From positions 1-64,000 of the forward strand of contig JAABQQ010000249.1 of NCBI GenBank assembly GCA_011391405.1: a DNA stretch of 64,000 nt. Reading direction: 5' to 3'. The DNA comes from Gammaproteobacteria bacterium. Lineage in GTDB: Bacteria; Pseudomonadota; Gammaproteobacteria; Steroidobacterales; Steroidobacteraceae. Shown one piece after another: positions 3,080 through 52,219 of the stretch; the stretch's first letter is position 1; the number at the start of each line of letters is the position of its first letter. Made by a program: the position numbers and the translations under genes. A model generated the notes under the pieces. It worked only from the letters and a program-made list of their open reading frames with translations, was not told the DNA's origin and searched no databases.

Positions 3080-3093
3080 TCGGAGCAAGGCAC

Positions 3094-32569: not shown

Positions 32570-32589
32570 TCTCCAGATAGTCCGAACAA

Positions 32590-33891: not shown

Positions 33892-34004
33892 GAGTGACCG
33901 AGAGGAATGCGGTGCCTAGTGAAGGGCAGCGCTCAGCGCTTTGCCACCGTATTGCTACCTAGCAAGGTAGCGTCCAGACCTGCAGCGCCGCTCCGCGCCC
34001 GTGC

Positions 34005-35243: not shown

Positions 35244-35287
35244 GGGATTACCTCGCGAGTGCCTTGATGATCGTCGGACAGCAGCAC

Positions 35288-36853: not shown

Positions 36854-36864
36854 CGCGAACCTTG

Positions 36865-37743
36865 TCAGGTCGTCAGTCGCGACGTGAGATGGCCAACGAT
36901 CATCGCTTCCTGCTGGCGTCGCTGTGCCGCTGACAGCCCTGCGGTGAGTCCGCCGTCGACGACCCAGTCCTGGCCCGTGACGTAGCTGCCGTCGTCGCTG
37001 GCGAGGAAGGCTGCCGCCGCTGCGACGTCCGCCGGCTCACCGGCTCGGCCAGCCGGAAGCGCCTTGCCGAACACTTCTCTCAGCAGGTCCAGGGCGTCGC
37101 ACTCGCGGCCCGCCGGCACGGTGAGTGCCTTGAGGAAGAGCGGCGTCACGATCGCGCCGGGCGAAATCGCGTTGACGCGTATCTTTTGCTCGGCCAGCTC
37201 CAAAGCCGCACAGCGCGTGAAGTGGCTGACAGCGGCTTTCGCGGCGCTGTAGACGGCAGATTGGGAACCGGCGCGATGCGCAGCCGTGCTGCTGCAGTTG
37301 AGGATGACGCCGCCATGCTCGCTCATGGCGAGCGCGGCCTTTTGCGTGGCGAGCACGACGCTGGTGAACAAGGTGTCGATTTCGGCGCGCAGCGACGCCG
37401 GTTCCAGCGCGAGCAGCGATGCCGGCACCTGCGTCTCGCCCGCATTGTTGAACAGGATGTCGAGCCGGCCACGCCAGGCCACTGCGCCGTCGATCAGCGC
37501 GCTCAATGCGGCGTCATCGGTCACGTCGGCTGCGATGAAGTGGACGCGCTCGCCCAGTTCCCGCACGAGTTCGCCGCCGCGCTCTGCCGAGCGACCCGAT
37601 GCGACCACCCACGCGCCCTCGGCAACGAACCGGCGCACCGTGGCGGCACCGATGCCGCCCGTGCCGCCGGTGATCAATGCGACCCGACCCTCGAGTCGTC
37701 GCAACGATGAGTCGCTCACTGCGCCCGGCTGCGGTGCATTCAT
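36865..37743 (-). CDS. Short-chain dehydrogenase/reductase
   Basis: A 292-residue classical SDR. The cofactor motif TGGTGGIG, NNAG, the catalytic Ser in NCSS and the YSAAK Tyr-Lys pair are all visible. It interconverts an alcohol and a ketone with NAD(P). A short low-complexity N-terminus precedes the Rossmann fold. It overlaps the SMP-30 gene by 4 bases and is 11 bases before the ligase gene, so the three are co-translated. Confidence 0.9.
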   Translation of the reverse strand: MNAPQPGAVSDSSLRRLEGRVALITGGTGGIGAATVRRFVAEGAWVVASGRSAERGGELVRELGERVHFIAADVTDDAALSALIDGAVAWRGRLDILFNNAGETQVPASLLALEPASLRAEIDTLFTSVVLATQKAALAMSEHGGVILNCSSTAAHRAGSQSAVYSAAKAAVSHFTRCAALELAEQKIRVNAISPGAIVTPLFLKALTVPAGRECDALDLLREVFGKALPAGRAGEPADVAAAAAFLASDDGSYVTGQDWVVDGGLTAGLSAAQRRQQEAMIVGHLTSRLTT

Positions 37744-38612
37744 GACGTGGCTCCGTAGACCGAGGGCAAGCCGGCACCCGCGACCGACACGTGCACCGTG
37801 AACAGTGCGCCGCTGGGGCCTTTCGCACGTATCTCGGCGCGGTCATGCGTATCGGACGCAGTGATCAGCAGCGTCCGGCCATCGGCGCCTCCGAGCATGC
37901 AAGCGGTCGCGCGCGTGGAGCCCATGTCGACCACGTCAGTGATCTCGCCGCCCTCATGCACACACAAGACCCGGTGATGACTGGCGACCCAGACCGCACC
38001 TTCCGCATCGAGGCTGATGCCGTCGGGCATCTCGCCGGGCAGTGCTGCCCAGACCCGTCGGTCGGTCAGCGTTCCATCCGCTTGCCGGGTGAACGCCAGC
38101 AGCTCGCCGGTGAGCGAGTCGGCGACCAGCAGTTCGCCGCTCCGCAGGATGGTCATGCCGTTGGGAAACACGATCTCGCGCGTCGCGACGGTTGCGCGGC
38201 CATCCGGCGTGACGTGCACCAGCGGGCTGGGCTGGCCGATCTTGCTCGGGTCGGCAAAGAGGTTGAAGTCGACGGCGCCGACGTAACAGTGACCGTCGGG
38301 TGCTCGCAGCAGGTCGTTCAACGCCCAGCCGACCAGGCCCGTGGCGTCGGCGAACGTCCTTGCGACGCCATCGCGCACCGACACGATGCGACGCTCGAGT
38401 CCGGCGACGACCAGCAGCGAGCCGTCATCGAGCCGCACCCAGCCCGACACCGGGCTGCCATGTACGTAAATGGCCTGTGCAGTGCCGTCCGCGCCGATCC
38501 GGTACAGCGTCCCGGCATCGATGTCGCAGAAGTAGAATGCGTCGCGGAACCAGCGCGGCGCTTCCGGAAAAACGAAGGGCTTCTTCTGCAGAAGGTCTGG
38601 AATGTAGTGCAT
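37740..38612 (-). CDS. SMP-30/gluconolactonase/LRE-family protein
   Basis: A 290-residue six-bladed beta-propeller of the SMP-30/gluconolactonase family, metal-dependent hydrolases of lactones. PEAPRWFRDAFYFCDI at the start, LNDLLRAPDGHCYVG, VFPNGMTI and LVADSLTGEL supply the conserved Glu, Asn and Asp ligands. No signal peptide is seen, so it is cytosolic. It may open a ring lactone formed in the pathway. It sits between the TonB receptor and the SDR. Confidence 0.87.
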   Translation of the reverse strand: MHYIPDLLQKKPFVFPEAPRWFRDAFYFCDIDAGTLYRIGADGTAQAIYVHGSPVSGWVRLDDGSLLVVAGLERRIVSVRDGVARTFADATGLVGWALNDLLRAPDGHCYVGAVDFNLFADPSKIGQPSPLVHVTPDGRATVATREIVFPNGMTILRSGELLVADSLTGELLAFTRQADGTLTDRRVWAALPGEMPDGISLDAEGAVWVASHHRVLCVHEGGEITDVVDMGSTRATACMLGGADGRTLLITASDTHDRAEIRAKGPSGALFTVHVSVAGAGLPSVYGATS

Positions 38613-38635
38613 GGCAGGACTCCGGTGCCGCGCCG

Positions 38636-40972
38636 TCAGAAACGCACGTCCATCGTCACGCCGTAGGTGCGCGGCTCGTTGAGGAAGAACTGCATTCCGC
38701 CGTCGATGCCGCCGAAGATGGTCTGCGGGCCGGCGGCGGTGATCACGGTTTCATCCGTCAGGTTCTCGCCCCACAAGGTCACGCTATAGCGCTCATTGCG
38801 CCAGCCCAGGCGCGCCGACCACAGGTTGTAGGCGTCCTGCTCTGCACGCGGGTCGAGGCCGGTGTCGGCGTTCTGCTCGGAGGTGTAGTTCCAGTCCGTG
38901 CGGAAGAATCCGGTGCCCGACGCCAGCGCGTGCTCGTATTGCACCCCAAGGGTGGTGCGCCAATCCGGAGCATTGGGCAGCGTCGCGCCGCTCAGGTCAC
39001 AAGTGCGTTCCGCGGCATTGGTCGGCGTGCGGCCGAAGTAGCAGGCGCCCTGGGCGAACTCGTCGTACTCGGCATCGAGGTAGGTAACGGCATAGTCGAA
39101 CGTCAGGCCCACAAGCGGCCGCACGCTGCCATCGAGTTCGATACCCTGGCTCACGGCCTTCTCGGCGTTGCGTACCAGGAAGCTGAGCCCAAGGAACGAA
39201 GCGTTCTGGAAGTCCTCGAACTCAGACCGGAACACGCTCAGGTTCAAGGTGGCCTGGTCGTTCCAGAAGCGGCTCTTCAGGCCCGCCTCCAGGTTGAGAA
39301 CCGTTTCATCCTTGAACTCGCGTCTGGCGGCCGTCAGTTGTCCTGAGGCGTCCCAGTCCCCGTTGTAACCGCCTGCCTTGTAGCCTTCCGAGACCGTGGC
39401 ATAGAGCGTGGTGCCCGTGGCTACGTCGAACAGCGCGCTCAGGTTCCAGGCCAGGCCATCGGTGCTCAGGTCGGCGACCACAGGTGTCGGCACCGTGGTG
39501 TTCAGCGCCAGGCTCGGCAGGGCGGCAACCTGGTAGACGGAGCGAACGTTGATGGACTTCTCCTCGTCGATGTAGCGCAGGCCCGCCGACAGCCTCGTGC
39601 GGTCGGTCACCTGCCAGTCCGTCTGGGCGAACAGGCTCCAATGACGCGTGTCGTTCTGCGACTGGAAGCTGGACTGGTCCCCGGCCGCGCCGTTGAACGG
39701 CGCCGGTAGGGGAACGATGTCGGCGCCCAGCACCAGTATCGGCTCATTGGGGCTGAGCGATCCACGCGTGAAGTCGTTGTCGTAGAAGTACGCGCCTGTC
39801 ATCCAGGACAGCGGCCCGTCGCCCTGCGACGTGAGGCGGAATTCCTGGCCGAAGGCGTCGGATTCCTGGCGGTCGATGAACACAGCTGCGGTGAACGCGG
39901 ACTGCTCGGAGTCGATCTGCGACTCCACGTCGAAGTGATCGAGGCTGGTGGTCGAGGTCAGCACGGCCCAGTCGAACTCGTAGCTGAATTCAGCCAGCAG
40001 GTCGTACTGGTCGCCTTCGAACTGGTAGGGGTCGCTATACGTCGTTTTCCGGTTGAGCGGGTCGGCGTCCACAGGGCGTCCGAGCAGGCCGAGGAATCTC
40101 GTCGAAACGGCACCCGGCAGGACGTCCGGCGAGCAGCAGTCGCCGTCTTTCTCGGAGTAGCCGGCCACGAACCTGAGGTTGGCGCGCTCGCCGATGTCGA
40201 ACTCGAGCTGGCCGCGCAACGCGGTGCGCGAGAAGCCGCCACTGTTCGTGCCATTCACGCTGTCGTCGAAGCTGCCGTCGCGATCGCTGGTCACCGCCGC
40301 GAGACGACCGCGTACGCCGTCGGTCAGCGCGCCGTTGATGCCGCCCTGCAGTTGCCAGTAGTTGAGGTTGCCGAAGCTGGCCCCGCCCCAGACGCCGAAG
40401 TCGTCCGTCGGACGGTTGGTGATCACGTTGATCAGGCCGGCCGTGACGTTCTTCGGATACAGCACGCTCTGAGGTCCGCGCAGGACTTCGATCCGTTCGA
40501 CGTCGAGCAGGTCGCCCATGGCGACACCGGAGCGCGAGCGATAGGCGTTGTCGATGAACAGTCCGACGGCGGGCTCGAAATTCGGAATGTTGGCAAGATT
40601 GCCCAGGCCGCGGATGCGCAGCGACGTCGTGAACGGGTTGGTGTTGCCCTCCACTTCGAGCGAGGGCACCTGCGAAGCGATCTGCGCGAACTCGACGACG
40701 CCGGTGTCGCGCAGGCGCTGTGCATTGAGCGCACTGACCGCCATCGGCACGTCCTGGAACGACTGCTCGCGTCGGGCGGCCGTCACGACGATCTCCTCGA
40801 TCTGTTGCCCTTCCACCTGCTGGCCTTCCACGACCTGCGCGCCGGCGACGCCGGCGGTGGTGGTGAGCGCCGCGAACAGGATCGCTCGCACTCCTTGCTG
40901 CAGCGCGGTGCTTCCGCTCCGGTCAAATTGCGCGTCGGCGAAATACGTGCGATCGAAATTCTGTGTGGACAA
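38636..40972 (-). CDS. TonB-dependent outer membrane receptor
   Basis: A 778-residue receptor with an N-terminal signal segment (RAILFAALTTTAGVAGAQ), a plug starting around residue 60 (EEIVVTAARREQSFQDVP), then a 22-strand barrel ending in the usual aromatic residue (VTMDVRF). The start is a TTG at 40972 with GGGGGAG five bases before it; an in-frame upstream extension lacks a site. The plug style is typical of receptors for large organic ligands in degraders. In this cluster it probably imports the sulfated substrate or its product. Confidence 0.88.
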   Translation of the reverse strand: MSTQNFDRTYFADAQFDRSGSTALQQGVRAILFAALTTTAGVAGAQVVEGQQVEGQQIEEIVVTAARREQSFQDVPMAVSALNAQRLRDTGVVEFAQIASQVPSLEVEGNTNPFTTSLRIRGLGNLANIPNFEPAVGLFIDNAYRSRSGVAMGDLLDVERIEVLRGPQSVLYPKNVTAGLINVITNRPTDDFGVWGGASFGNLNYWQLQGGINGALTDGVRGRLAAVTSDRDGSFDDSVNGTNSGGFSRTALRGQLEFDIGERANLRFVAGYSEKDGDCCSPDVLPGAVSTRFLGLLGRPVDADPLNRKTTYSDPYQFEGDQYDLLAEFSYEFDWAVLTSTTSLDHFDVESQIDSEQSAFTAAVFIDRQESDAFGQEFRLTSQGDGPLSWMTGAYFYDNDFTRGSLSPNEPILVLGADIVPLPAPFNGAAGDQSSFQSQNDTRHWSLFAQTDWQVTDRTRLSAGLRYIDEEKSINVRSVYQVAALPSLALNTTVPTPVVADLSTDGLAWNLSALFDVATGTTLYATVSEGYKAGGYNGDWDASGQLTAARREFKDETVLNLEAGLKSRFWNDQATLNLSVFRSEFEDFQNASFLGLSFLVRNAEKAVSQGIELDGSVRPLVGLTFDYAVTYLDAEYDEFAQGACYFGRTPTNAAERTCDLSGATLPNAPDWRTTLGVQYEHALASGTGFFRTDWNYTSEQNADTGLDPRAEQDAYNLWSARLGWRNERYSVTLWGENLTDETVITAAGPQTIFGGIDGGMQFFLNEPRTYGVTMDVRF

Positions 40973-41068
40973 GTTGCTCCCCCTGCAGAGTGTTTCTGCA
41001 TTTTGCGGAGCGCAGTGTCGTGTGAGTCGGTCGTGCCGCCTATCGGAATTCCGCACGATCGCGTCAGC

Positions 41069-42049
41069 TCAAGGCTTGCGGCGCAATGTTTCCGATGGCA
41101 GTTCGCCGAAGCATTCCTTATATGCGCGCGAGAATTCGCCGAAATGCCAGAAGCCCCAGTTGAGCGCCTCGGTCGTGACCGTCGTCGATCCGTGCGTCGC
41201 AGCCAGGAGCGCCTGCCGTACGCGATGCAGCCTGAGCCGCGACAGGTAAGTCACGGGGCTCAATCCCATGATCTCCTTGAACGCGTACTCCAGTGTCCGT
41301 TCGCTCACCCGCGCGACCTTGCAGAGGTCGGTCACGTAAAGACGGTCGCCGGGCTGCGCCATTGCATAGTCCTCGGCGGTCTTCACGATGACACTTTGTG
41401 CCTGGCGAGTGCGGTCGTTGCGTGTGGACTCGAAGCCATCAGCCACCCTCAGTGTGGCAAGCAGTGTTTCGAGCAGTTCGTTCTGCGCGTTCACACGCTC
41501 TTTCATTTGCTCCCCGAAAAGTGCGGGCTGGAACAAGGCGGTGTCCACCAGCAATTTCCCCCAATCGAACAGTCGCCGAACGCTTTCCGGGTCGGCCTGC
41601 AAAGGCTCGGCTCCTTCTGGCACATGAAACTCGGCAGCGCGCTGCCGGGCCGTCAGGTGCGCAAGGATGTCCTCTGGCGGCAAGAGAAAAGTAATGCTCT
41701 CCCAGCCGCCTTCGGCGACTAACGTGTTTTCCATCTCCGACTCTGCGGCGAGCAAGAGCCCGGGGCGAACCGGCAAGCCATTGATCGTCCCGTGGGCCTG
41801 GGGGCCGAACGTGACGTACGCGAGGAAGCCACTGCGAACGCTGGTGCGCGTCCGGACGCGCAGGTTGGTCGAGTGGAACACGACAGCGGCCGATTCGAGG
41901 CGAATCATCACCCGCCGAACTCGAAGCGGCAGTGACTGGAGTTGCACTGCATCCAGGTCGAGTAGTTCGACACCGGTATTGGCTGCGGTAGGGTCGCTGA
42001 TGTCGACCACCGTGACCGCATTTTCGGCTGCAGTTGGTTTGCCCTTCAT
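41069..42049 (-). CDS. AraC-family regulator, downstream member of tandem pair
   Basis: A 326-residue protein with a C-terminal AraC DNA-binding domain (two HTHs; VSERTLEYAFKEIMGLSPVTYL, then WGFWHFGEFSRAYKECFGELPS). The N-terminal about 200 residues are a shared sensor-like domain with TVVDISDPTAAN and VRTRTSVRSGFLAYVTFG. It is a clear paralogue of the next gene upstream and overlaps it by 4 bases. It is placed 97 bases before the TonB receptor gene on the same strand. Start at MKGKPTAAEN; the open frame above it is a shadow of the partner gene. Confidence 0.88.
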   Translation of the reverse strand: MKGKPTAAENAVTVVDISDPTAANTGVELLDLDAVQLQSLPLRVRRVMIRLESAAVVFHSTNLRVRTRTSVRSGFLAYVTFGPQAHGTINGLPVRPGLLLAAESEMENTLVAEGGWESITFLLPPEDILAHLTARQRAAEFHVPEGAEPLQADPESVRRLFDWGKLLVDTALFQPALFGEQMKERVNAQNELLETLLATLRVADGFESTRNDRTRQAQSVIVKTAEDYAMAQPGDRLYVTDLCKVARVSERTLEYAFKEIMGLSPVTYLSRLRLHRVRQALLAATHGSTTVTTEALNWGFWHFGEFSRAYKECFGELPSETLRRKP

Positions 42050-43071
42050 GCCGGCGTGCTGCGGGACTGCGCGGGAATGGCCGTAGTGCTGTCGGGTTCG
42101 CGTCGCAGGGTTCGCGACGGTGGCTCCCCGAAGCACTGCTTGTACGCCCGCGAGAATTCGCCAAAGTGCCAGAAACCCCACTTGAGCGCCTCGGTCGAGA
42201 TGAGGGTTGATCCCGGCTCTGCAGCGAGCAGGGCGGCGCGCACCCAGTGCAGGCGCAGTCGCACCAGATATCCCATCGGGGACAGCCCGGTCACGTCCTT
42301 GAAGGCGTACTCGAGCGTGCGTTCGCTGACGTCGGCGGCCTGGCACAGATCCGATACATGCACGCGCTCGCCGGCTCGGGAGCGCGCGTGATCCTCCGCG
42401 ATCTTGACGATCCGGCTGTAGCCCTGTCGTGTCCTTTCCATGCCGGTAGGTTCGAGTTTGTCTGCCGAATGCATCGCCGTGAGAAGCACTTCCAGCAACT
42501 CGACCTGGGCAGCTTCCCGCTCGGGACGCCCCTCTTCGAACAGCGCAGGCTTCCTTGACCCGGCAACCGCCAGGCGCTTTCCCCAGCGGAAGAGCGCCCG
42601 GGCCTGGGCCGGATCGGTACGCAGTACTTCCACGCCGCGTGGCCAGCGAAACTCGCCGGCGCGCTGACGGGCGGACAGCTGTTCCCGGATGTCGTCTGGT
42701 CGAACCAGCAATGCGACGCTCTCATAGCCCGAATCGACGACGAACCCAACCTCGGTCCCAGTCTCGGCGACCAGCAGCATGCCTGGACGAACCTCGAGTC
42801 CCTCCACGATGCCATCGGCCCGCGGACCGAAGGTGACGTAGGCCAGCAGACCGTCGTGCACCCGGGTTCGTGTCCTGACAGGCAGATTCGTCGAGTGATA
42901 GACGACGATGGCCGACTTGAGTCGCACGATCACGCGCCGCGCGCGCAGAGGTGTGGACAGCAGGGGCATTCCAACCTGCTCGAGCACGGCCATGCCAGCG
43001 TTGGCGGCAGTCAAGTCGGTGATGTCGACGACCGTGACGCCAGGTTGAACGGGTGTAGTGGAATGCCCCAT
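42046..43071 (-). CDS. AraC-family regulator, upstream member of tandem pair
   Basis: A 341-residue paralogue of the neighbouring regulator with the same sensor-like N-terminus (TVVDITDLTAANAG, VRTRTRVHDGLLAYVTFG) and a nearly identical C-terminal domain (TLEYAFKDVTGLSPMGYL, WGFWHFGEFSRAYKQCFGEPPS). The N-terminal halves differ more than the DNA-binding ends, which suggests different signals acting on the same or similar operators. It is divergent from the arylsulfatase, with GGACA-type repeats in the shared 166-base region. Confidence 0.88.
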   Translation of the reverse strand: MGHSTTPVQPGVTVVDITDLTAANAGMAVLEQVGMPLLSTPLRARRVIVRLKSAIVVYHSTNLPVRTRTRVHDGLLAYVTFGPRADGIVEGLEVRPGMLLVAETGTEVGFVVDSGYESVALLVRPDDIREQLSARQRAGEFRWPRGVEVLRTDPAQARALFRWGKRLAVAGSRKPALFEEGRPEREAAQVELLEVLLTAMHSADKLEPTGMERTRQGYSRIVKIAEDHARSRAGERVHVSDLCQAADVSERTLEYAFKDVTGLSPMGYLVRLRLHWVRAALLAAEPGSTLISTEALKWGFWHFGEFSRAYKQCFGEPPSRTLRREPDSTTAIPAQSRSTPA

Positions 43072-43119
43072 CGTCGTTTCGTTCTGCGGATTTCCGATAG
43101 ACCACTGCCAACGGTTGCC

Positions 43120-43159
43120 CGGACACTGGCGATTGTCCGATCCATGTACTTGTAGGACA
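43120..43159. promoter_or_regulatory. GGACA-motif cluster between AraC pair and sulfatase
   Basis: CGGACA (43120-43125) and TGTCCG (43134-43139) form a perfect inverted repeat with an 8-base gap; another GGACA follows at 43155-43159. Spaced half-sites in the divergent control region are candidate operators for the tandem AraC proteins. This is inferred from position and symmetry only. Confidence 0.35.
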
Positions 43160-43237
43160 GTGCCGGCACCGGCCGCTTTTCGACCCCAAAGTTTACCGCG
43201 TCCAATCCCGAAGATGGCTCGCAACAGGAGAATTCTC

Positions 43238-45046
43238 GTGGCATCAGCCAACGTGACTCGAGCCAGTGTCGCCGTGATCGCGGGCCTCCACGCAGCCCTT
43301 TTCTCCGCGGGTGCGCCCGCGCAGGCGGAGGTTCAGCCGAAGCGGCCGAACATCGTCGTCATTCTCGGCGACGACCTGGGCTTCGCGGATATTGGTTCGT
43401 TCGGCAGCGAGATCAATACCCCGAACCTCGACAACCTGGCCAGGGAAGGCGTTCGCTTCGCGAACTTCTACACGCACGCGAGCTGCTCGCCCACGCGATC
43501 GATTCTGCTGAGCGGCGTCGATACGCACCTGAACGGCCTCGGCAACATGAGCGAGTGGACCGCGCCCAACCAGCGAGGCGCGGTCGGCTACGAGGGCTAC
43601 CTCAACCACCGCGTCGCCACGCTGCCACAGCTGCTGAAGGATTCCGGCTATCACACCTACATGGTCGGCAAGTGGCACCTGGGCAAGCAGCCCGACCGGA
43701 TTCCGCGCGCGCGCGGCTTCGAGCGCGATTTCTCGCTGCTCGACGGGGCAGGCAGCTACTGGGACATGTGGAATTTCACGGGCGCCTCGCCGAAGTCGAC
43801 CTTCACGGAAGACGGCCGCTACCTGACGCAGCTGCCGAAGGACTACTACGCGACGAAGACCTATACCGACAAGATGATCGGGTTCATCGATGCCAACCAT
43901 GGCGACGGCAAGCCGTTCTTTGCCTACGTGGCCCACCAGGCGCCGCACGATCCCTACCACCTGCCGAAGGAATGGCGCAGTCGCCACGTCGGTGAATACG
44001 ACAAGGGCTGGGACGCGATCCGGCAGGAGCGGCTCAAGCGGCAGATCGAACTCGGCATCATGCCGGCGGGTACGCAACTCGCGGAGCGGATGTATTTCCT
44101 GCCAGACCCAGTCGTGCTCGCACCGGCGAGCCGCGCCATTCTCGGTAAGAAAATGGAGCTCTACGCCGGCATGGTCGAGAACCTGGACTACCACGTCGGC
44201 CGCCTGATCGACCATTTGAAGAAGATCGGCGAGTACGAAAACACGATCTTCATCGTCTTCGGCGACAACGGCGCCGAGGGCACCGACCTGTTCAAGATGA
44301 TCGCGGGCACGCCGGGCACGCTCAACTACCTCTTCGCGGCGTCCCGCTGGTCGCAGACCAACCCCAACGCGTGGGGCGATCCGGGTTCGTACGTCGGCTA
44401 CGGTCCGATGTGGGCGCAGGTGTCGATGACGCCGTTCAGCCAGTACAAGGGTTGGACCGCCGAAGGCGGCATCCGCAATGCGCTGATCGTGAGCGGCCCT
44501 GTAGTCCAGCGGCCCAAGGGCAGCGTCAACCACGGGCTCATGCACGTCGGCGACATCATGCCGACGCTGCTGTCGATTGCAGGTGCGAGCTATCCGAAGA
44601 CGAGCGCCGAAGGTCAGGAACTGCCCGCGCTGATGGGCAAGCCCTGGAACGACGTGCTGGCCGGCCGGGCGGAGTCGCCACGCACGGAACGCGACTATCT
44701 CGCGTGGGAGATCTTCGGCAACCGCGCGGTGCGGCAGGGCGAGTGGAAACTGCGCTGGCAGTTCAAGCCGTACGGCACGGGCGAATGGGAGCTGTATAAC
44801 GTCGCGACCGATCCCGGCGAACGCATGAACGTGGCCGCGCAGAATCCCGAAAAAGTGCAGGCGCTGCTGGCAGTCTGGGACGGCTATGCCAAGGCCAACA
44901 ACGTGATCCTGCCGACCCGCGGGCCGTTCGAAACCCTGTACGACCAGCTGCCCGTGCGTGTCCCGGTCGACGAGGGCTTCCCGCCGCTCATCTACCAGCG
45001 GCAGTTCGTGCCGCCGCAGGAAATGCTGGCGGAACCCAAGCCGTGA
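43238..45046 (+). CDS. Arylsulfatase, Cys-type, exported
   Basis: A 602-residue sulfatase. The GTG start at 43238 has a canonical AGGAG seven bases upstream; an in-frame ATG at 43214 would add eight residues. A signal peptide (ASVAVIAGLHAALFSAGAPAQA) is followed by NIVVILGDDLGFADIG with metal-ligand Asp residues. The formylglycine Cys is near residue 83 in ASCSPTRSILLSG, the classic C-x-P-x-R form. VGKWHLG and VFGDNGAEGTD are further active-site segments. It heads the plus-strand arm of the island, sharing a control region with the AraC pair, and probably needs the maturase at 32590. Confidence 0.93.
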   Translation: MASANVTRASVAVIAGLHAALFSAGAPAQAEVQPKRPNIVVILGDDLGFADIGSFGSEINTPNLDNLAREGVRFANFYTHASCSPTRSILLSGVDTHLNGLGNMSEWTAPNQRGAVGYEGYLNHRVATLPQLLKDSGYHTYMVGKWHLGKQPDRIPRARGFERDFSLLDGAGSYWDMWNFTGASPKSTFTEDGRYLTQLPKDYYATKTYTDKMIGFIDANHGDGKPFFAYVAHQAPHDPYHLPKEWRSRHVGEYDKGWDAIRQERLKRQIELGIMPAGTQLAERMYFLPDPVVLAPASRAILGKKMELYAGMVENLDYHVGRLIDHLKKIGEYENTIFIVFGDNGAEGTDLFKMIAGTPGTLNYLFAASRWSQTNPNAWGDPGSYVGYGPMWAQVSMTPFSQYKGWTAEGGIRNALIVSGPVVQRPKGSVNHGLMHVGDIMPTLLSIAGASYPKTSAEGQELPALMGKPWNDVLAGRAESPRTERDYLAWEIFGNRAVRQGEWKLRWQFKPYGTGEWELYNVATDPGERMNVAAQNPEKVQALLAVWDGYAKANNVILPTRGPFETLYDQLPVRVPVDEGFPPLIYQRQFVPPQEMLAEPKP

Positions 45047-45092
45047 TTGACACCGGTCCGCGAATCAACCAGGCAAGAAGGACGATAATTTC

Positions 45093-46094
45093 ATGAACAT
45101 CGCACGGGGTTGGGCGCATCCGCTGGCCGGCTTGCGCGGCGTAGGGTTGACGTTGCTGGCCATGGGCATCTTCTGCCCGTTGACCGCCATGTCGCAGGTG
45201 CCTCCGCGCTTCTACTGGAAGACCCTGTCCGGCGCGAGTGCGGTGCCGCTGATCGTGACGTCCATGAGCGGCAACACGAATCCCTTCGATGCCGCGCACA
45301 CCGTGACACCGGGCGCCGATTTCGAAGGCACCCTGGCCCTGGCTGGGTATGCGCGCACCTTCACCTTGTTCGATCGCGCGGCCATGGGGGCGGTGCTGGT
45401 CCCCATGGGACGTATCTCGGGCGACGTCATCACTCCGGGTGGCGAACCGGTCTCGCAGTCGGTGAGCGGCTTTGGCGACCCGACCGTGGAGTTCAACCTC
45501 AACCTGATCGGACCGAAGGCGCAGAAGAACATTCCAGACGTCATCCGCTACGAACCGGGCTTTTCGCTCGACGTGCTGGCGGACCTCGCCATCCCGATCG
45601 GTGAATACGACAGCAGCCAGCCCTTGAACGTGGGGCAGAACCGCTGGTACGGACGCGTCGGCTTTCCCATCGTCTGGCAGCTGGGCGCATGGGTGCCAGG
45701 ACGCCGCACGACGCTGGAATTCCTGCCCGCGGTCTGGCTCTTCGGCGACAACACCGACTACGTCGGCCAGACGCTGGAGACGGATCCGCTGTACCAGATC
45801 GACGCGCACCTCACGCGTGACTTCACCGCGCACCTCTGGGGCTCGCTCGATGCAGCCTGGTACAACGGCGGCGAGGCGACTGTCGACGGGGTCAAGGGCG
45901 AGGAAATTGACAACTACGGCTTCGGTCTAACGCTGGGCTACCAGATCAACGACAACCTCGGGCTCACCTTCAGTTACAAGTCGACGGCCAGCGACAACGC
46001 GCCGGACGATCTGCAGATGGACGTGTTCATGATCTCGCTGGTCTCCGGGTGGCATCCGATCATCGAAGGCTCGAAACGGCTGCAGAGCGAGTAG
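45093..46094 (+). CDS. Outer-membrane transporter-like protein (phenol MetA-type barrel)
   Basis: A 333-residue exported protein: signal peptide (LTLLAMGIFCPLTAMSQ), then alternating beta-strand sequence of an outer-membrane barrel. GFGDPTVEFNLNLIG, PIGEYDSSQPLNVGQNRW and the C-terminal NLGLTFSYKST resemble the MetA-pathway of phenol degradation family, often called transporter. It follows the sulfatase by 46 bases and precedes a second barrel protein, so it may let hydrophobic substrate or product cross the outer membrane. The role is inferred from family and context. Confidence 0.75.
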   Translation: MNIARGWAHPLAGLRGVGLTLLAMGIFCPLTAMSQVPPRFYWKTLSGASAVPLIVTSMSGNTNPFDAAHTVTPGADFEGTLALAGYARTFTLFDRAAMGAVLVPMGRISGDVITPGGEPVSQSVSGFGDPTVEFNLNLIGPKAQKNIPDVIRYEPGFSLDVLADLAIPIGEYDSSQPLNVGQNRWYGRVGFPIVWQLGAWVPGRRTTLEFLPAVWLFGDNTDYVGQTLETDPLYQIDAHLTRDFTAHLWGSLDAAWYNGGEATVDGVKGEEIDNYGFGLTLGYQINDNLGLTFSYKSTASDNAPDDLQMDVFMISLVSGWHPIIEGSKRLQSE

Positions 46095-46185
46095 CCGCCT
46101 GGAGGGCGTTCAACGCATTCCGCGCCACGCAAAAATGAGACGCGCGGCGTTCTCTGTCGGTCCGCATCAGCAGGGGAGAACGAAG

Positions 46186-46995
46186 ATGACACGCCACGAA
46201 TGGACGCTGCCGCTCGCCATCAGCGCGTTGCTGCTTGCCGTGCCAACCCAGGCACAGAGCGATCAGGCGGCCGAGCTCGCCAAGAAGCTGGCGAACCCGG
46301 TGGCCTCGCTGATCAGCGTGCCGTTGCAATACAACTACGACGAGTATGGCGGTGCCAACGACGGCGCCGCGGTCAGCAAACTGGTCATCCAGCCGGTGAT
46401 CCCGTTCTCGCTGAACGAGGACTGGAACCTGATCACGCGCACCCTCATCCCGCTCATCGACCAGGCGGATTTCCCGGTGGACGCGCTGAACGAATCGGGC
46501 CTGGGCGACATCACTCCCAGCTTCTTCTTTTCACCGAAGGCGCCGACGGCCGGCGGCTGGATCTGGGGCGCAGGGCCGGTGTTCTTGCTGCCGACGGCGA
46601 CCGCAGACGTGCTCGGCACCGAGAAGTGGGGAATCGGGCCGACGGGCGTGGCCCTGAAGCAGATGGGGCCATGGACGGTAGGCATGCTCGCCGGTCACGT
46701 CTGGTCCGTCGCCGGCAGCGACGACCGCGCCGATGTCAGCGCCACCACCCTGCAACCGTTCGTCAGTTACACCACCAAGACGCATACGACGATTGGTGCG
46801 TATACGGAGTCTGCCTACGACTGGGAAGCCGAACAGTGGGGTGTGCCCTTGATCGTGCAGGCGGGGCAACTGTTCAAGATCGGGCCGCAGATCCTCCAGT
46901 TCGCGGTGGCTGGAAAGTACTGGGCAGAGGGGCCGAATGACGGCCCGGAGGGCTGGGGCTTGCGCCTGCAGTTGACGCTGCTGTACCCAAAATGA
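46186..46995 (+). CDS. Outer-membrane protein, putative transporter
   Basis: A 269-residue exported protein. A signal peptide (LPLAISALLLAVPTQAQ) precedes a barrel-like sequence with ANPVASLISVPLQYNYDEYGG, SGLGDITPSFFFSPK and the terminal LRLQLTLLYPK. Its type is common near sulfatases and other catabolic genes in marine and soil degraders. The start is the ATG behind GGGGAGAACGAAG. It ends the plus-strand arm of the island; about 260 bases later the duplicated tRNA-Lys end is reached. Confidence 0.72.
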   Translation: MTRHEWTLPLAISALLLAVPTQAQSDQAAELAKKLANPVASLISVPLQYNYDEYGGANDGAAVSKLVIQPVIPFSLNEDWNLITRTLIPLIDQADFPVDALNESGLGDITPSFFFSPKAPTAGGWIWGAGPVFLLPTATADVLGTEKWGIGPTGVALKQMGPWTVGMLAGHVWSVAGSDDRADVSATTLQPFVSYTTKTHTTIGAYTESAYDWEAEQWGVPLIVQAGQLFKIGPQILQFAVAGKYWAEGPNDGPEGWGLRLQLTLLYPK

Positions 46996-47256
46996 AGCGA
47001 CGATCGGCCGGCGAGTTCGTTGTCACTCTGGTCGCCGTAGGAGCCGGCCTCGTCGTTCAACTGGTATTCGAGGCGGCATATCCGGTTGCACGAGTTTGTT
47101 ACTCGTGACCTGCGGTTGAAACCTATGACGGGGATAACTGGACACGATGGGGCAGTGAGTAACTATGATCTGCGCTATTTCCCCAGAGCTGCCCTTTTGT
47201 TTGGCTTGGGTAACGTCAGAACAGAAAAAATCCTTTAAAAACAACCAGAACCGTTC
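46996..47256. other. Gene-free gap before attachment repeat 2
   Basis: No convincing gene. The last 40 bases are AT-rich (a run of A, then CCTTTAAAAAC), as is the stretch before the third repeat, and unlike the surrounding high-GC DNA. Small open frames here lack ribosome sites. Confidence 0.5.
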
Positions 47257-47303
47257 GACTCTTAATCAGTAGGTCGTAGGTTCGAATCCTACACGGCCCA
47301 CCA
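47257..47303 (+). repeat. Attachment-site copy 2 (exact 47-base tRNA-Lys 3' end)
   Basis: Identical to bases 32523-32569 from the anticodon stem to CCA, in the same orientation, with no 5' half of a tRNA. It is a displaced tRNA end, the right junction of the 14.7-kb segment that starts after the intact tRNA. The nine bases after it (CTTTCAAGT) also follow copy 3. Confidence 0.85.
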
Positions 47304-47528
47304 CTTTCAAGTACTTGCGAGCATTGATGCTCGAGATTGGGTAACTCGGTAACAGGTTTTCACCGCCGTTGTTACCCACTACCCGGCAAGCCCCGAACCT
47401 GGCACAAAGGCGTTTGTGCTGCTGGAGATCCTGGTCATTTCGCCCAGCTCCTCGAGCGGCTGCTTTGCGGCGTCGGGGCCGCAGGCAGAGAACGGCCAGT
47501 TTCGGTCGTTCGTAGCGAGATTCGCGGT

Positions 47529-47572
47529 TTGACGAGCGTGCACACTTGTACATACTCGACGCATGGAGTATG
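47529..47572 (+). promoter_or_regulatory. Promoter and inverted repeat at the brnT start
   Basis: TTGACG (47529-47534), 16 bases, CATACT (47551-47556) fit a sigma70 promoter whose start would fall at or next to the brnT ATG, so the mRNA may be leaderless. CATACTC (47551-47557) and GAGTATG (47566-47572) form an inverted repeat around the start codon, a candidate operator for BrnA. Confidence 0.45.
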
Positions 47573-47832
47573 AATGGGACCCGGCCAAGGCGAAGGCCAA
47601 CCTCCGAAGGCACGGCATCGCGTTTGCCGATGCGGTTTTGGCGCTGGAGGACCCGCGAGCACTTACCATGGCCGATCCGGACGCCAGCGGCGAGCAGCGC
47701 TTCGTCAGCCTGGGTTCGGATCCGAATGGGCGTGTGGTGGTGACGGTCTTCACGCCGCGAGGGCGTCGCACTCGAATCATTTCCTCACGCAAAGCCAGCC
47801 GTAACGAACGGCGGACGTACGAGAGCCTATGA
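47563..47832 (+). CDS. brnT: BrnT-family toxin
   Basis: An 89-residue RelE-fold ribonuclease toxin of the BrnT family. The N-terminus MEYEWDPAKAKANLRRHGIAF is the family signature, followed by DPDASGEQRFVSLGSD, VVVTVFTPRGRRTRIISSRKAS and the basic C-terminus ERRTYE. It would cut mRNA and halt growth until neutralised by BrnA. It overlaps brnA by 4 bases, toxin first, the normal order for this system. Confidence 0.9.
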   Translation: MEYEWDPAKAKANLRRHGIAFADAVLALEDPRALTMADPDASGEQRFVSLGSDPNGRVVVTVFTPRGRRTRIISSRKASRNERRTYESL

Positions 47833-48086
47833 TGCGCAAGGAATACGACTTTTCAAAGGCAAAGCGCGGCCCGGCGGTACCGGTGCCGACGGGCAAGACT
47901 CGAATCACGATTCGCCTAGACGATGACATCGTCGAATGGTTCAAGACTCAGGTCGAGGCGGCAGGCGGCGGCAACTACCAGTCGCTGATCAACGCCGTAC
48001 TGCGCGAACATATGCGCAGGGCGGACGAATCGCTTGAGAAGACGCTGCGTCGTGTCCTTCGCGAGGAGCTGAAGCGCGCAAGCTAA
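47829..48086 (+). CDS. brnA: BrnA-family antitoxin
   Basis: An 85-residue antitoxin with a ribbon-helix-helix DNA-binding segment (TRITIRLDDDIVEWFKTQ...GNYQSLINAVLREHM) and an N-terminal KEYDFSKAKRG arm typical of BrnA. It binds BrnT and represses the operon. The start overlaps the toxin stop. Both genes look intact, so the module is probably active and stabilises this small segment. Confidence 0.9.
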   Translation: MMRKEYDFSKAKRGPAVPVPTGKTRITIRLDDDIVEWFKTQVEAAGGGNYQSLINAVLREHMRRADESLEKTLRRVLREELKRAS

Positions 48087-48211
48087 AAGGCAGGATAGGG
48101 TCGCGTCCGGCCTGTCGTGGCGCGGTAAGATCGGCCAGAAGCGGACGATCGGAACGCGGGCGCGTGTGGGACAGGCGGTCCACCGCGCTGATATTGTTGG
48201 GCGGTCCGCGT

Positions 48212-48357
48212 GGAGCTTGCGCAGCCAAGGATCGTCGTCGCCGAGTCCGCGGCCGTTGGGCTCTACATCGCTCAGAAGGCGGGCACGCTCATCCCGTCCG
48301 ATTTCCACGGCCGCACGCGAGTGACGCAATGGTTCTTCGCCGCCATGCACAGTCGAG
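48212..48357 (+). pseudogene. Glutathione S-transferase N-terminal relic
   Basis: About 48 residues (PRIVVAESAAVGLYIAQKAG, then TLIPSDFHGRTRVTQWFFAA) match the end of a GST thioredoxin-like domain, where ESxAxxxYxAxK precedes LIPxDxxGR and the first helix of the alpha domain. The protein's start and most of the alpha domain are missing. The relic ends about 20 bases before the GTTAGGC core that precedes the CPBP gene, so a cassette may have inserted into it. Confidence 0.6.
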
Positions 48358-48377
48358 GCGCCGCTCTTTCAGATCGC

Positions 48378-48384
48378 GTTAGGC
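48378..48384 (+). promoter_or_regulatory. GTTRRRY integron-type core before the CPBP gene
   Basis: GTTAGGC fits the recombination core consensus GTTRRRY and lies 4 bases before the CPBP start, where cassette genes normally begin. Seven bases alone are weak, but the attC-like site after the gene gives it weight. Confidence 0.45.
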
Positions 48385-48388
48385 CGAC

Positions 48389-49375
48389 ATGAAAGATCAT
48401 GATCCAGTTGTAGGTTCTCTCCACTCCGAACCGCCCCGATATAGCGAAGATGCCGTGTCTTCTGAGTGCCTTGACCCGAGTCGCACTCTTTCGGTGGCAC
48501 CGGGAGGCATCGCACGGCAGCGCATGCGCGTCGCCGGCCGGACGCTGGGCTCGCTGCTGCTGGGTGGTGCGGCGGTCCTAGGCTCGGTGCTGGTCTTTCG
48601 GCAGGGCCTACTGCCGCTGATCGACGCGGTGTTCCAACCTGGGCCCGAATTGCTCAGTGCGTTCAGGCGCGCCGGCATCCTCCTGTCGGCAATGGCGGGC
48701 TACTGGGCTTACGTGCGTTGGCATGAAGGACGCGAAGCGACCGAACTGCGGCTGCGGCCGGTTCACCTGATGCTTGGCGGCGCAAGCGGTGCCGTCCTGG
48801 TCGCGTTGCCGATCGCCGTGCTGTTCGCGCTCGGCGCGTACGAAAAGGTGCTGTTCCGTGGCGTCTCGCCGGCGCTGTGGAGCGTGGCGGTCCTCATCGG
48901 CATCGCGGCCGTACTAGAAGAACTGGTCTACCGCTGCCTGCTGTTGCGGCTGCTGGAGCGGCCCTTGGGAACGAGCATTGCGCTGGCGGCACAGGCATTG
49001 ATATTCGCCGTGGGGCATTTGGAAAACGTCCACCAGGGCAGGACTGCCGATGTGGTGGCGATGTTGGTCTCGGTGACCTTGCTGGGCCTGCTGTGGGGCG
49101 GACTGTTCGTCCTGGCGCGCAACCTGTGGGTGGTGGCTGCCAATCACGCGGCATGGAACTTCACCATACTGCTCAGCGGTGTGCCGCTTTCCGGCATCGA
49201 GGACTGGCGCGCGCTGGCGCCGTTCGAAAGCCGCTATGCCGGGCCCGACTGGCTGACCGGGGGCATGTTCGGTCCGGAAAGTTCGCTGCTGGTGATCGTG
49301 TCGACCACGGTCGCGGTTGCGCTGCTGCTGCGCGCGGCACGGCGGCGCGGGGACTTCCTCGTGCCGGCGACCTAG
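48389..49375 (+). CDS. CPBP-family intramembrane metalloprotease
   Basis: A 328-residue multipass membrane protein of the CAAX-protease/bacteriocin-processing (Rce1-like, Abi) family. The catalytic motifs are all there: EELVYR (Glu177, Glu178, Arg182), FAVGH (residues 206-210) and NHAAWN (near 247-252), spread over about eight hydrophobic segments. The N-terminal 45 residues are soluble. Relatives process prenylated proteins or bacteriocins or give self-immunity; the substrate here is unknown. No promoter is evident. With a core site just upstream and an attC-like site downstream it looks like a mobile gene cassette. Confidence 0.85.
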   Translation: MKDHDPVVGSLHSEPPRYSEDAVSSECLDPSRTLSVAPGGIARQRMRVAGRTLGSLLLGGAAVLGSVLVFRQGLLPLIDAVFQPGPELLSAFRRAGILLSAMAGYWAYVRWHEGREATELRLRPVHLMLGGASGAVLVALPIAVLFALGAYEKVLFRGVSPALWSVAVLIGIAAVLEELVYRCLLLRLLERPLGTSIALAAQALIFAVGHLENVHQGRTADVVAMLVSVTLLGLLWGGLFVLARNLWVVAANHAAWNFTILLSGVPLSGIEDWRALAPFESRYAGPDWLTGGMFGPESSLLVIVSTTVAVALLLRAARRRGDFLVPAT

Positions 49376-49488
49376 ACCGGCAGGCGCGCGCCTTCGGTAT
49401 GCGGCGCGATGCTGACGAGGCGGTTGGGAGCTAAGCGCACCTTCAGGCTGATCCTTTGGTCGCGTCCGTCACCCGCCCTGCCGGTGCG

Positions 49489-49545
49489 GCCTAGTTCATT
49501 CAAGCCGAAGCCGCTTCGCGGCTCGGCTTAACGCAGACGTTGAAC
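49489..49545 (+). repeat. attC-like integron recombination site
   Basis: The segment from GCCTAGT to GTTGAAC has attC architecture. The 3' core fits GTTRRRY; the inner arms AAGCCG...CGGCTT and AGCCGC...GCGGCT pair around a TTC loop, leaving A at 49508 as an extrahelical base, the hallmark that sets attC strand choice. The sequence closely resembles well-known 60-base attC sites. The outer 5' core is degenerate. It starts 113 bases after the CPBP stop, in the same orientation as the gene. Confidence 0.7.
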
Positions 49546-49719
49546 GTCTGCTTTGTAGCGGGACAAACTTCTGCTGTGGGTCGACCGCAGAAGTTGCGAC
49601 CTGGCAAACCGGACATTCCGCTTCCTCAATCAATCGGACGCTTCACGTGTTGTTCTTCTTCATTTTCGGTCCTTGGCACCCGGTCGGGTGCGGTGACGGT
49701 TGGTACTCGTCATCGCATG
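49546..49719. other. Gene-free stretch after the attC-like site
   Basis: No gene is supported. ACTTCTGC (49566-49573) and GCAGAAGT form an inverted repeat around TGTGGGTCGACC. The rest shows no clear coding sequence on either strand. Confidence 0.4.
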
Positions 49720-49929
49720 TCATTCAACGGGGTCGACCACGCGACTGAGCAAGTACTTGGCGCTCATCTGCGCGGTGTGCCCAAGAAGGTTCTGGCGGTT
49801 CTTGGCTTCCGCATCCGTGTGGCCTTTCGCTCGGAGGTCGTGAAAAGCAAACGTCTTCAAGGAGCCCAGCCGCTCCAGGGCGCCGTCCACCGCTGACTGG
49901 GTAAGCGGCTGACCGAGGGCGGGACCCAA
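49720..49929 (-). pseudogene. Tyrosine recombinase (phage-type integrase), C-terminal relic
   Basis: A 69-codon minus-strand frame holding only the C-terminal catalytic end of an integrase: FHDLRAKG supplies the second Arg of the catalytic set, LLGHTAQMSAKYL the His and the nucleophilic Tyr. The N-terminal DNA-binding and first catalytic parts are missing; upstream bases belong to the Gp49/HigB module. It supports past integration at the tRNA-Lys repeats but can no longer act. Confidence 0.75.
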
Positions 49930-49962
49930 GCGCTTCCGCGGTCCCGTTCACCTTGCCGAAGT

Positions 49963-49978
49963 GTATCTATAATGATAC
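49963..49978. promoter_or_regulatory. Palindromic operator overlapping -10 of the toxin-antitoxin pair
   Basis: GTATC and GATAC arms exactly flank TATAAT (49968-49973). A perfect -10 inside a symmetric element directly before the toxin start suggests autorepression by the XRE antitoxin. The -35 region is poor. Confidence 0.5.
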
Positions 49979-49979
49979 G

Positions 49980-50342
49980 GTGTCGCGTGTGATTTCGCCC
50001 ACGTTAGCAGTTCGGTTCTTCCGCAGCTCGCAGGGCAACGAGCCTGTTCGTGAGTGGCTGCGATCGCTTTCCTAGATTGACCGCAAGTTGCTCGGCGAGG
50101 AAATTCGCACCGTGCAAATCGGTTGGCCGATCGGAATGCCTCTGGTTCGCAAGCTCGATGCCGGTTTGTGGGAAATCCGTGTACGCATGAAGGACGGCAT
50201 TGCGCGGGTGCTGTTCACGATCGAGGCGAAGGAGGCGATCCTGCTGCATGGCTTCATCAGGAAGTCGCAGAAGATTCCTGCGGACGAGCTTCAGACGGCG
50301 CAAGTGCGTCTGCAGCAACTGCGTGACGCACGGCGTCGCTGA
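49980..50342 (+). pseudogene. Gp49/HigB-like toxin interrupted by an in-frame amber codon
   Basis: Read from GTG at 49980, the frame encodes VRFFRSSQGNEPVREWLRSL, then TAG at 50073-50075, then continues IDRKLLGEEIRTVQIGWP, LVRKLDAGLWEIRVRM and LLHGFIRKSQKIPADEL to a normal stop at 50340-50342. Both halves match one continuous phage-derived Gp49/HigB (RelE-superfamily) toxin, so the TAG is a nonsense mutation. A TTG at 50088 could give an 84-residue fragment lacking the first strand and helix, probably inactive. The antitoxin gene follows in normal order. Confidence 0.75.
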
Positions 50343-50369
50343 GCCGAAACGACGGAAGGAGCAATAGTC

Positions 50370-50666
50370 ATGGCACGCAAGAAACACAATCCGCACGTTG
50401 GCAGTGATTTCGAAGACTTCCTCGCCGAGGAGGGACAGCTCGAGGGTGCGACTGCTGTCGCCATCAAGCGCGTGCTCGCGTGGCAGATTGCCCAGGCGAT
50501 GAAGGATGAAAAAGTCTCCCAGGCAGAACTGGCGCGCCGCATGAAGACGAGCCGGGCGGTAATTCACCGGTTGCTCGATGCTGATGACCCATCGGTCACG
50601 CTGTCGACGATCAGTCGCGCGGCTGCGGCGCTGGGTCGTAATGTGCGCGTGCAATTTGCGGCCTAG
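50370..50666 (+). CDS. XRE-family antitoxin (HigA-like)
   Basis: A 98-residue protein with a Cro/C1 helix-turn-helix (VSQAELARRMKTSRAVIHRLLD) and the C-terminal LSTISRAAAALGRNVRVQF ending typical of antitoxins paired with Gp49/HigB toxins. It starts 27 bases after the toxin stop with GGAAGGAG upstream. It appears intact although its toxin is interrupted, so it may now work only as a repressor or as an anti-addiction protein. Confidence 0.85.
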   Translation: MARKKHNPHVGSDFEDFLAEEGQLEGATAVAIKRVLAWQIAQAMKDEKVSQAELARRMKTSRAVIHRLLDADDPSVTLSTISRAAAALGRNVRVQFAA

Positions 50667-50843
50667 GGTTCGCTTTTCGAACGCGCAAAATCTGTCTCGC
50701 CAATTTGGGCATTGGCAGTATTTTTCGCATCGCCAGAAACTGTGGTACACGTCAAATCTGTAAGCCCCGCTATACAGATCTAAGCGGCGATTCTGGTACA
50801 CGCGGAAAGCGAAAAAGCCGTATAAAACAATACTATTGGGCTC
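50667..50843. other. Gap before attachment repeat 3, with paired TGGTACACG repeats
   Basis: No gene is seen. TGGTACACG occurs at 50743-50751 and 50794-50802 in the same orientation, 51 bases apart. ATCTGT and ACAGAT form an inverted repeat between them. The final 30 bases are AT-rich. Such repeats near an attachment site may be integrase arm-binding sites, though this is not established. Confidence 0.4.
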
Positions 50844-50889
50844 ACTCTTAATCAGTAGGTCGCAGGTTCGAATCCTACACGGCCCACCA
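50844..50889 (+). repeat. Attachment-site copy 3 (tRNA-Lys 3' end, one mismatch)
   Basis: Forty-six bases matching the tRNA-Lys 3' half with one T-to-C change in the T-arm region. It is followed by CTTTCAAGT, as is copy 2. It probably marks the outer right edge of the accessory region; no integrase gene lies beyond it within the window. Confidence 0.8.
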
Positions 50890-50906
50890 CTTTCAAGTGG
50901 TCCATA

Positions 50907-50948
50907 CCGGACACATGGGTTACACCTCATTCCGGACACTTGGCTTAC
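50907..50948. repeat. Imperfect 17-base direct repeat
   Basis: CCGGACACATGGGTTAC (50907-50923) and CCGGACACTTGGCTTAC (50932-50948) match at 14 or more of 17 positions with a 25-base period. They lie between attachment repeat 3 and the MFS gene end. A remnant of a mobile-element end is possible. Confidence 0.4.
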
Positions 50949-50968
50949 GCGCGCGTACCTCACGCCGT

Positions 50969-52219
50969 TCAGTCGACGTGCCTGCGGCCTGAACCGAACA
51001 CCAGGTAGAAGACCGCGCCGAACAGCGACACCGCCGCAGTGAGCACGAACGGTGCGCCAAACGTGCCCGTGCGATCGACGAGCCAACCCGTGACGTAGAT
51101 GCCGACAATGCCCGGCAGCGTGGCGAACGTGTTGCTGATGCCCCAGATGACGTCGGCGTACTTCGGGGCAATGTCGAAGCAGTTCGGGGCGAAGCCGGAC
51201 ATCGCGCACGCCGAGGTGGCCGTCGCGCCGCACATGATCAGGACGGCGGCCAGCGGCGTCGTCGCCTGGGTCAGCAACAGCAGGAACACGGCACTGCCGC
51301 CGAGCGCGATGGTCTGCATCAGCTTGCGGACGTAGCCGGCGCTGCGCCCGTGTTGCAGCATCCGATCCGCCCATGCGCCGGCCAGGTTCGCCGCGATGAA
51401 GTTGACCAGCCACGGTGCGGCGGACAGGACGCCGGCGCTGGCGAGCGAGACGCCGAACGTGCTCTTGAAGTAAGTCGGCATCCACGCGAGCAGGACGTAC
51501 AGGCCCCAGTTGCTGGCGAAGTGGCCTACGATGATGGCCCACACGGCCGGCAGTCGCAGCAGTTGCCCCCACGGTATGGCGCGGTGGGCGGTCTGCGACG
51601 ACGCCACCGACGAACTCGCAGGAACATCGTCGCGGGCAAGAAAGTGCCATGCCGCGTACCAGACCAGTCCGATGGCCCCGAACAGGTAGAAGGGCAATGC
51701 CCAGCCGTATTCGCGTATCAACCAGCCCGTGGCGGGCAATGCGAACACCGTGCCGAGCGAGATCGCACTGATGATGAGCGCGGTGGCGCGCGACCGGCGC
51801 TCCGGCGGCACCCAGCGCGAGATCATGTTCATGGCTGCGGGGAACACGGCTGCTTCGCCGAGCCCGAGCGCGATGCGAGCCGCGATCAGCGCGCCGAGCG
51901 ACATCATCGCGGCAGGCGGAGTGAGTGCCGTCCAGGCCGACCACCAGAGCACCGCGACGCCGAGGACCAGCCAACCGCCGAAGCGGTTCGCAGCCGCGCC
52001 GGTCACGGCCATCAGCAGCAGGTAGCCGACGAAGAACGAGGAGAGGACGATGCCTTTCTGCGTCTCGGTCCAGCCCAGGTCGTCCTTCATCGCGATGGCG
52101 GCCACCGAGATGTTGGTGCGGTCGATGTAGGAGATGAAGACAGCTGCAAAGAGCAGCAGCACGATGGTGTAATAACGCGGCCACACCAGGCCACTCGCCT
52201 CGCCCCGTGCACTGGACAT
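50969..52219 (-). CDS. MFS transporter (ACS/GudP-like)
   Basis: A 416-residue, 12-helix major facilitator protein. FISYIDRTNISVAAIAM and the RFGGWLVLG loop between helices 2 and 3 fit the anion:cation symporter group (organic anions such as hexuronates, phthalates or glucarate). A second copy of the fold starts around residue 220 (LPAVWAIIVGHF). The start is the ATG behind GGGGGAGG; the very long upstream frame is a shadow of the next gene. Substrate unknown; an organic acid is likely. Confidence 0.87.
   Translation of the reverse strand: MSSARGEASGLVWPRYYTIVLLLFAAVFISYIDRTNISVAAIAMKDDLGWTETQKGIVLSSFFVGYLLLMAVTGAAANRFGGWLVLGVAVLWWSAWTALTPPAAMMSLGALIAARIALGLGEAAVFPAAMNMISRWVPPERRSRATALIISAISLGTVFALPATGWLIREYGWALPFYLFGAIGLVWYAAWHFLARDDVPASSSVASSQTAHRAIPWGQLLRLPAVWAIIVGHFASNWGLYVLLAWMPTYFKSTFGVSLASAGVLSAAPWLVNFIAANLAGAWADRMLQHGRSAGYVRKLMQTIALGGSAVFLLLLTQATTPLAAVLIMCGATATSACAMSGFAPNCFDIAPKYADVIWGISNTFATLPGIVGIYVTGWLVDRTGTFGAPFVLTAAVSLFGAVFYLVFGSGRRHVD

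Follow-up and report, generated by a model that had tools for sequence, protein, structure and literature searches.

A probable integron gene cassette encoding a CPBP protease, carried in a tRNA-Lys genomic island of a Steroidobacteraceae genome

Introduction

How does a gene with the form of an integron cassette come to lie in DNA that carries no recognisable integron integrase? The question is raised by a gene for a CPBP (Rce1-like) intramembrane protease in the window, the 64,000-nt stretch of Steroidobacteraceae DNA analysed here. Known roles of the CPBP family include peptide processing and bacteriocin immunity. A sequence-only reading of the window had taken the gene for a lone integron-type cassette, perhaps inserted at a secondary site inside a relic of a glutathione S-transferase (GST) gene. 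Elements of this general kind are known: a single attC lacking an integron-integrase is referred to as a SALIN (PMC12690207), and CALINs, which have been proposed to be degraded integrons (IntegronFinder 2.0, PMC9024848), are found in about half of Xanthomonas genomes (PMC12444791). Here, we examine the attC site, the ends of the cassette, its relatives and its surroundings, and weigh the routes by which it may have reached its present position.

The attC Site Downstream of the CPBP Gene

The putative attC (49489–49545, plus strand) begins about 110 bp past the CPBP stop codon and was searched with a covariance model, R1, built from 26 sites outside the window, at loci of Xanthomonas, Stenotrophomonas, Pseudoxanthomonas, and Rhodoferax. 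At these source loci lie the CPBP gene or genes that neighbour it in arrays, which makes R1 independent of the window and not of the cassette's kin, and its E-values are rough owing to a short calibration. R1 matches exactly 49489–49545 over its full length (1–60) with 49.4 bits and an E-value of 7.7e-11. The covariance-model search that had been proposed as a check thus accepted the site with the very ends first claimed for it. No other R1 match at E ≤ 10 was found in the 64,000-nt window, and with filters off the next-best score in 47000–51000 was 9.3 bits. In the 3.5 Mb assembly from which the window comes, the site is the sole R1 match at E ≤ 1 (E 4.2e-9). Rfam gave no match in this region at the gathering threshold. 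By BLAST, the site is 80–97% identical over the matched part to attC sites in 3086 plasmid records, some of which lie beside aadB and aadA16, with a second search adding aadA6 and aadA11; these matches are independent of both the window and the kin of the CPBP cassette.

The hairpin, the loop, and the R′ box (GTTGAAC, 49539–49545) are intact. Two extrahelical bases, a C and an A, are present, a feature shared with the attC sites from which R1 was built, so that the attC structure described earlier stands except for its single extrahelical A. The R″ box (GCCTAG) is partly degenerate and lacks three consensus bases. Its outer pairing with R′ is weak, whereas its pairing with TTAGGC at the start of the cassette itself is good. 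An inverted repeat, GCAGACGTTGAACGTCTGC, extends across the R′ box at 49529–49551. That the site is a hairpin arising by chance, or an attC-like repeat with no link to the CPBP gene, is hardly credible, the imperfect R″ being all that speaks for it. A chance hairpin is rejected by the independent R1 match together with the whole-assembly search, and the low E-value, the uniqueness of the site in the assembly, the matching cassette ends, and the existence of orthologous cassettes with the same start all speak against either version.

The CPBP Gene and the Ends of the Cassette

The 5′ boundary of the cassette is a plus-strand GTTAGGC at 48378–48384, separated from the CPBP start codon by the four bases CGAC, as had been noted from the sequence. 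With the crossover at G|TT, the cassette proper runs from 48379 to the G at 49539. The CPBP gene (48389–49375, plus strand) encodes 328 amino acids (PF02517, E 3.7e-15) and all three protease motifs are intact, EELVYR, FAVGH, and NHAAWN, corresponding to the family pattern EExxxR, FxxxH, and HxxxN. Judging from a dN/dS of about 0.2–0.5 against its relatives, the reading frame appears to be under purifying selection. No match to the CPBP protease was found in 72,556 plasmid records or, in a scan sensitive to close relatives only, on viral contigs; neither the protease nor the neighbouring BrnT and BrnA proteins matched an anti-phage library. In a promoter scan, no plus-strand promoter-like site was found between the BrnTA genes and the CPBP reading frame, in keeping with the earlier description of a single promoterless gene in the correct orientation. 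The only such site in 47450–49700 is at 47529–47556, ahead of BrnT, and no terminator-like site was found in that interval. Transcription of the promoterless cassette would have to start upstream of it, and the promoter-like site of BrnTA at 47529 is a plausible source.

The cassette starts with G|TTAGGCCG at 48378, and this start is reverse-complementary to the outer arm of the attC (TAGGCCG against CGGCCTA), so that the two ends of the cassette fit one circle. The attC arm now faces GTTGAAC of the downstream DNA, with which it pairs poorly. Poor outer-arm pairing and a shortened R″ would be expected of a cassette that had been inserted and had then started to decay. In sum, the site has the features of an attC, the ends are complementary, one promoterless reading frame lies in the attC orientation, and the same gene is cassette-borne in bona fide arrays (see below). 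On this sequence evidence, the CPBP gene is almost certainly a genuine integron gene cassette, as the sequence-only reading had proposed.

Whether the cassette is still mobile is a separate matter, compatible with either origin considered below. It could be young and freely mobile, with an attC that remains fully functional with any IntI; such a view is in line with an intact attC hairpin, its loop and its pair of extrahelical bases, with an intact R′ box, and with an intact CPBP frame under purifying selection. We regard it as rather improbable, since R″, three bases short, pairs badly with R′ as it now stands, and no IntI above the cut-off was found in the assembly. A partial loss seems the better description: the attC keeps its hairpin, spacer, and cleavage box, and the poor pairing of its outer arms would reduce mobility in trans without necessarily abolishing it.

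Relatives of the CPBP Cassette

One scan of the genome collection gave 37 loci that encode relatives of the CPBP protease. An attC adjoins the gene in Xanthomonas arboricola, X. dyei, X. prunicola, a Stenotrophomonas sp., a Dokdonella sp., Pseudoxanthomonas koreensis, a Rhodoferax sp., Thermomonas beijingensis, and a Steroidobacteraceae metagenome-assembled genome (MAG), G003, of the same genus as the window genome. The gene is a cassette in bona fide arrays at seven loci (L010, L011, L012, L025, L016, L017, and L023). The suggestion that the same cassette be sought in arrays of other species was thus answered in, for example, Xanthomonas, Stenotrophomonas, and Dokdonella, and the possibility that homologues always have the window's flanks in non-integron settings fell away, as they carry different attC flanks in real arrays. 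The start GTTAGGCCGACATGAAAGAT is common to the window cassette and to four attC-flanked copies, three from Xanthomonas and one from Stenotrophomonas (L010, L011, L012, and L025). In a Dokdonella MAG (L017, 79–1721), the CPBP gene is directly preceded by a BrnT-like gene that has attC sites on both sides, which is the gene order of the window.

The closest homologue (82% amino acid identity) is encoded at 2869–3863 of locus L009 in a Planctomycetota MAG, and the window gene groups with it in the tree with 98% SH-aLRT support. The Planctomycetota copy retains a cassette-like start, GTTGGGCCGACATG, and no attC was recognised after it. Close homologues are scattered over Pseudomonadota and MAGs labelled Planctomycetota, Verrucomicrobiota, Acidobacteriota, and Fermentibacterota, and the gene is present in only 2 of 120 genomes searched in the window's family (E ≤ 1e-40). 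This scatter suggests wide transfer, to which errors of MAG binning could add.

The tRNA-Lys Island

The cassette lies within a tRNA-targeted genomic island that the sequence-only reading had missed. The tRNA-Lys gene is at 32494–32569, and its 3′ end is copied by two plus-strand direct repeats of 55 nt that are 98% identical, one at 47258–47312 on the left of the cassette (identical to tRNA-Lys over 46 nt) and one at 50844–50898 on the right. In genome G005, of the same genus, the site is empty: a tRNA-Pro-Arg-His-Lys cluster directly abuts the DNA found after the last of these repeats in the window. The repeats and the empty site together indicate a tandem insertion of 18.3 kb at tRNA-Lys, and repeats on both sides with an empty site in a relative are what define an island of this type.

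Besides the CPBP cassette, the second part of the insertion, 3.6 kb, contains the BrnTA pair, another toxin–antitoxin-like pair, a GST fragment, and what may be the relic of a recombinase gene. The possible relic (49720–49929, minus strand) would be the C-terminal part of a phage-type tyrosine recombinase, not of an IntI; its similarities are weak (tblastn to the phage phiAH14a integrase, E 0.02; PHROG 14425, E 7.5e-4) and it had no Pfam match. The second pair (50088–50666, plus strand) consists of a Gp49/HigB-like toxin (PF05973, E 1.2e-16), its first reading frame possibly truncated, and an HTH antitoxin (PF13443, above cut-off). The first island at the same tRNA-Lys (32570–47303, 14.7 kb) has reading frames that by eye resemble a sulfatase, a radical-SAM protein of the anaerobic sulfatase-maturase type, a thiolase, an acyl-CoA ligase, a dehydrogenase, a TonB receptor, and an AraC-type protein, and perhaps serves the breakdown of a sulfated compound.

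Integron Integrases in the Genome and the Genus

No IntI above the cut-off was found in the window's own draft assembly (78% complete), in keeping with the earlier remark that the window holds no integron integrase; the intI gene that a complete integron includes was not seen. Three integrase-like matches on contigs C60, C223, and C132 were rejected as IntI, as none reaches the cut-off. The C60 match presumably adjoins an IS91-type transposase reading frame, and we take those on C223 and C132 to resemble XerD/XerC-type genes. Sister genomes do carry integron integrases. G005 has an intact one beside tRNA-Gln (contig C14, 456 bits with TIGR02249) and what we take to be ribosomal protein genes; in G004, the intI gene at this tRNA-Gln is broken and is accompanied by a cassette array. 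The corresponding place in the window's own genome (L113, contig C54, 2777–5221) holds an island of small genes, bounded by the tRNA-Gln gene and by another, partial copy of it, in which neither attC nor intI was detected.

Origin of the Cassette: the BrnTA Pair and the GST Fragment

An IntI integrase would have excised the cassette as a circle from an integron array, and recombination at G|TT would have inserted it; the cassette would now be remote from any integron, as cargo of the 3.6 kb island at the tRNA-Lys 3′ end. What may be debated is whether it arrived alone. Upstream of it lies a BrnT/BrnA toxin–antitoxin pair assigned by Pfam (47529–48086, plus strand; reading frames 47563–47832 and 47829–48086, with the promoter-like site in front). 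The segment 47529–48072 is 72% identical in nucleotides to a BrnTA cassette in the G004 array (contig C340), and the pair is 76% identical to a copy in G005 (contig C66). BrnTA is itself a cassette family of the integrons in the window's genus.

The bases that follow BrnA, 48087–48172 (plus strand), form a collinear alignment with those downstream of BrnA in G005, a sequence that by eye has the form of an attC and in which R1 found no match. The score of this alignment was reached by none of 500 shuffles under scheme A and by 0.2% under scheme B; among 4934 other segments of the window, 24 and 32 reached it (0.5 and 0.65%). R1 had no match in 48087–48172 either, and the sites in G004 and G045 aligned with it no better than chance, so that only one of the three homologous sites tested gives the alignment. 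The evidence is suggestive of a dead attC of a BrnTA cassette.

Between this stretch and the CPBP cassette lies the GST fragment (about 48228–48353, plus strand), with both ends missing and similarity to GST chains in the PDB (phmmer, best E 1.3e-6). The relic seen by the sequence-only reading is therefore real, but it is short, its similarity ends about 24 bp short of the cassette junction, and none resumes past the cassette at 49540. Insertion within a continuing GST gene is thus unsupported. That a single cassette entered a secondary site within the relic was not demonstrated, no empty site for the cassette having been found either, and the cassette-family BrnTA next door, with its probable decayed attC, counts against the cassette being alone.

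A competing view is that a trans-acting IntI inserted a single cassette at an attG-type site beside the GST fragment, giving a SALIN, with BrnTA an ordinary gene of the island. Just one attC is recognisable and none lies immediately upstream of 48378: the 38 bases before it resemble an attC no more than expected by chance, and a half-site there was rejected. Both junctions show G|TT, sister genomes have IntI, and cassette insertion at attG sites has already been described (Loot et al. 2024, according to the citing papers PMC12901181 and PMC12444791). Against this stand the cassette status of BrnTA in the integrons of the genus with the probable decayed attC here, the absence of GST sequence on the far side of the cassette, and the failure to find an empty site for the CPBP cassette itself. 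We consider such a single insertion a serious but somewhat unlikely competitor.

The homology of BrnTA to cassettes and its probable decayed attC make a remnant of an array likelier than one secondary-site insertion, and we hold this part of the interpretation with moderate confidence. The CPBP cassette would be the best-preserved piece of a short array and BrnTA a second, more decayed cassette, with the GST fragment between them. The single recognisable attC of the genome and the lack of an IntI above the cut-off weigh against an array remnant, although the assembly is only 78% complete. Taken as a whole, a genuine cassette carried as cargo of the tRNA-Lys island, likely as an array remnant, is probably the right account.

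Relation to Known Integron Systems

A stranded integron cassette is a known kind of element, and array remnants and single insertions are both known kinds. The CPBP locus resembles SALINs and CALINs in having a single-gene cassette with one attC and no integrase near, and it differs from them in the tRNA-Lys island, the second, apparently decayed cassette, and the partial loss of the attC outer arm. It holds one clear attC, the second being seen only as a decayed alignment. The sedentary chromosomal integrons of Xanthomonas (PMC12444791) have the same CPBP cassette, start sequence, and attC class; their copies are flanked by attC sites, that of L025 in a long array, and unlike in the window their stop codon lies inside R″. 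Class 1 integron cassettes of the aadB/aadA type share an attC 80–97% identical to that of the window, whose cargo is instead a CPBP protease.

The locus illustrates how a cassette leaves the integron system and becomes island cargo, and it documents CPBP proteases as a cassette family, for which a full-text search of CPBP or CAAX with integron terms found no report. We raise as speculation, unlikely to be right, that proteases of this CPBP subfamily recur as integron cargo across phyla, and that tRNA islands capture pieces of arrays in which a promoter-bearing BrnTA keeps the promoterless CPBP gene expressed, to be retained after the integron is lost.

The tRNA-Gln integrons (G004:C340 and G005:C14) belong to the window's own genus, and the G004 array contains the same type of BrnTA cassette. 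Unlike the window, they have an intI gene, and their attC sites are mostly longer and differently looped; no CPBP cassette was seen in either. The G004 integron (L084, 4410–11284), with its broken intI at tRNA-Gln, carries an array of small genes that includes two BrnTA-like pairs and, by eye, a VOC-like and an alpha/beta-hydrolase-like reading frame.
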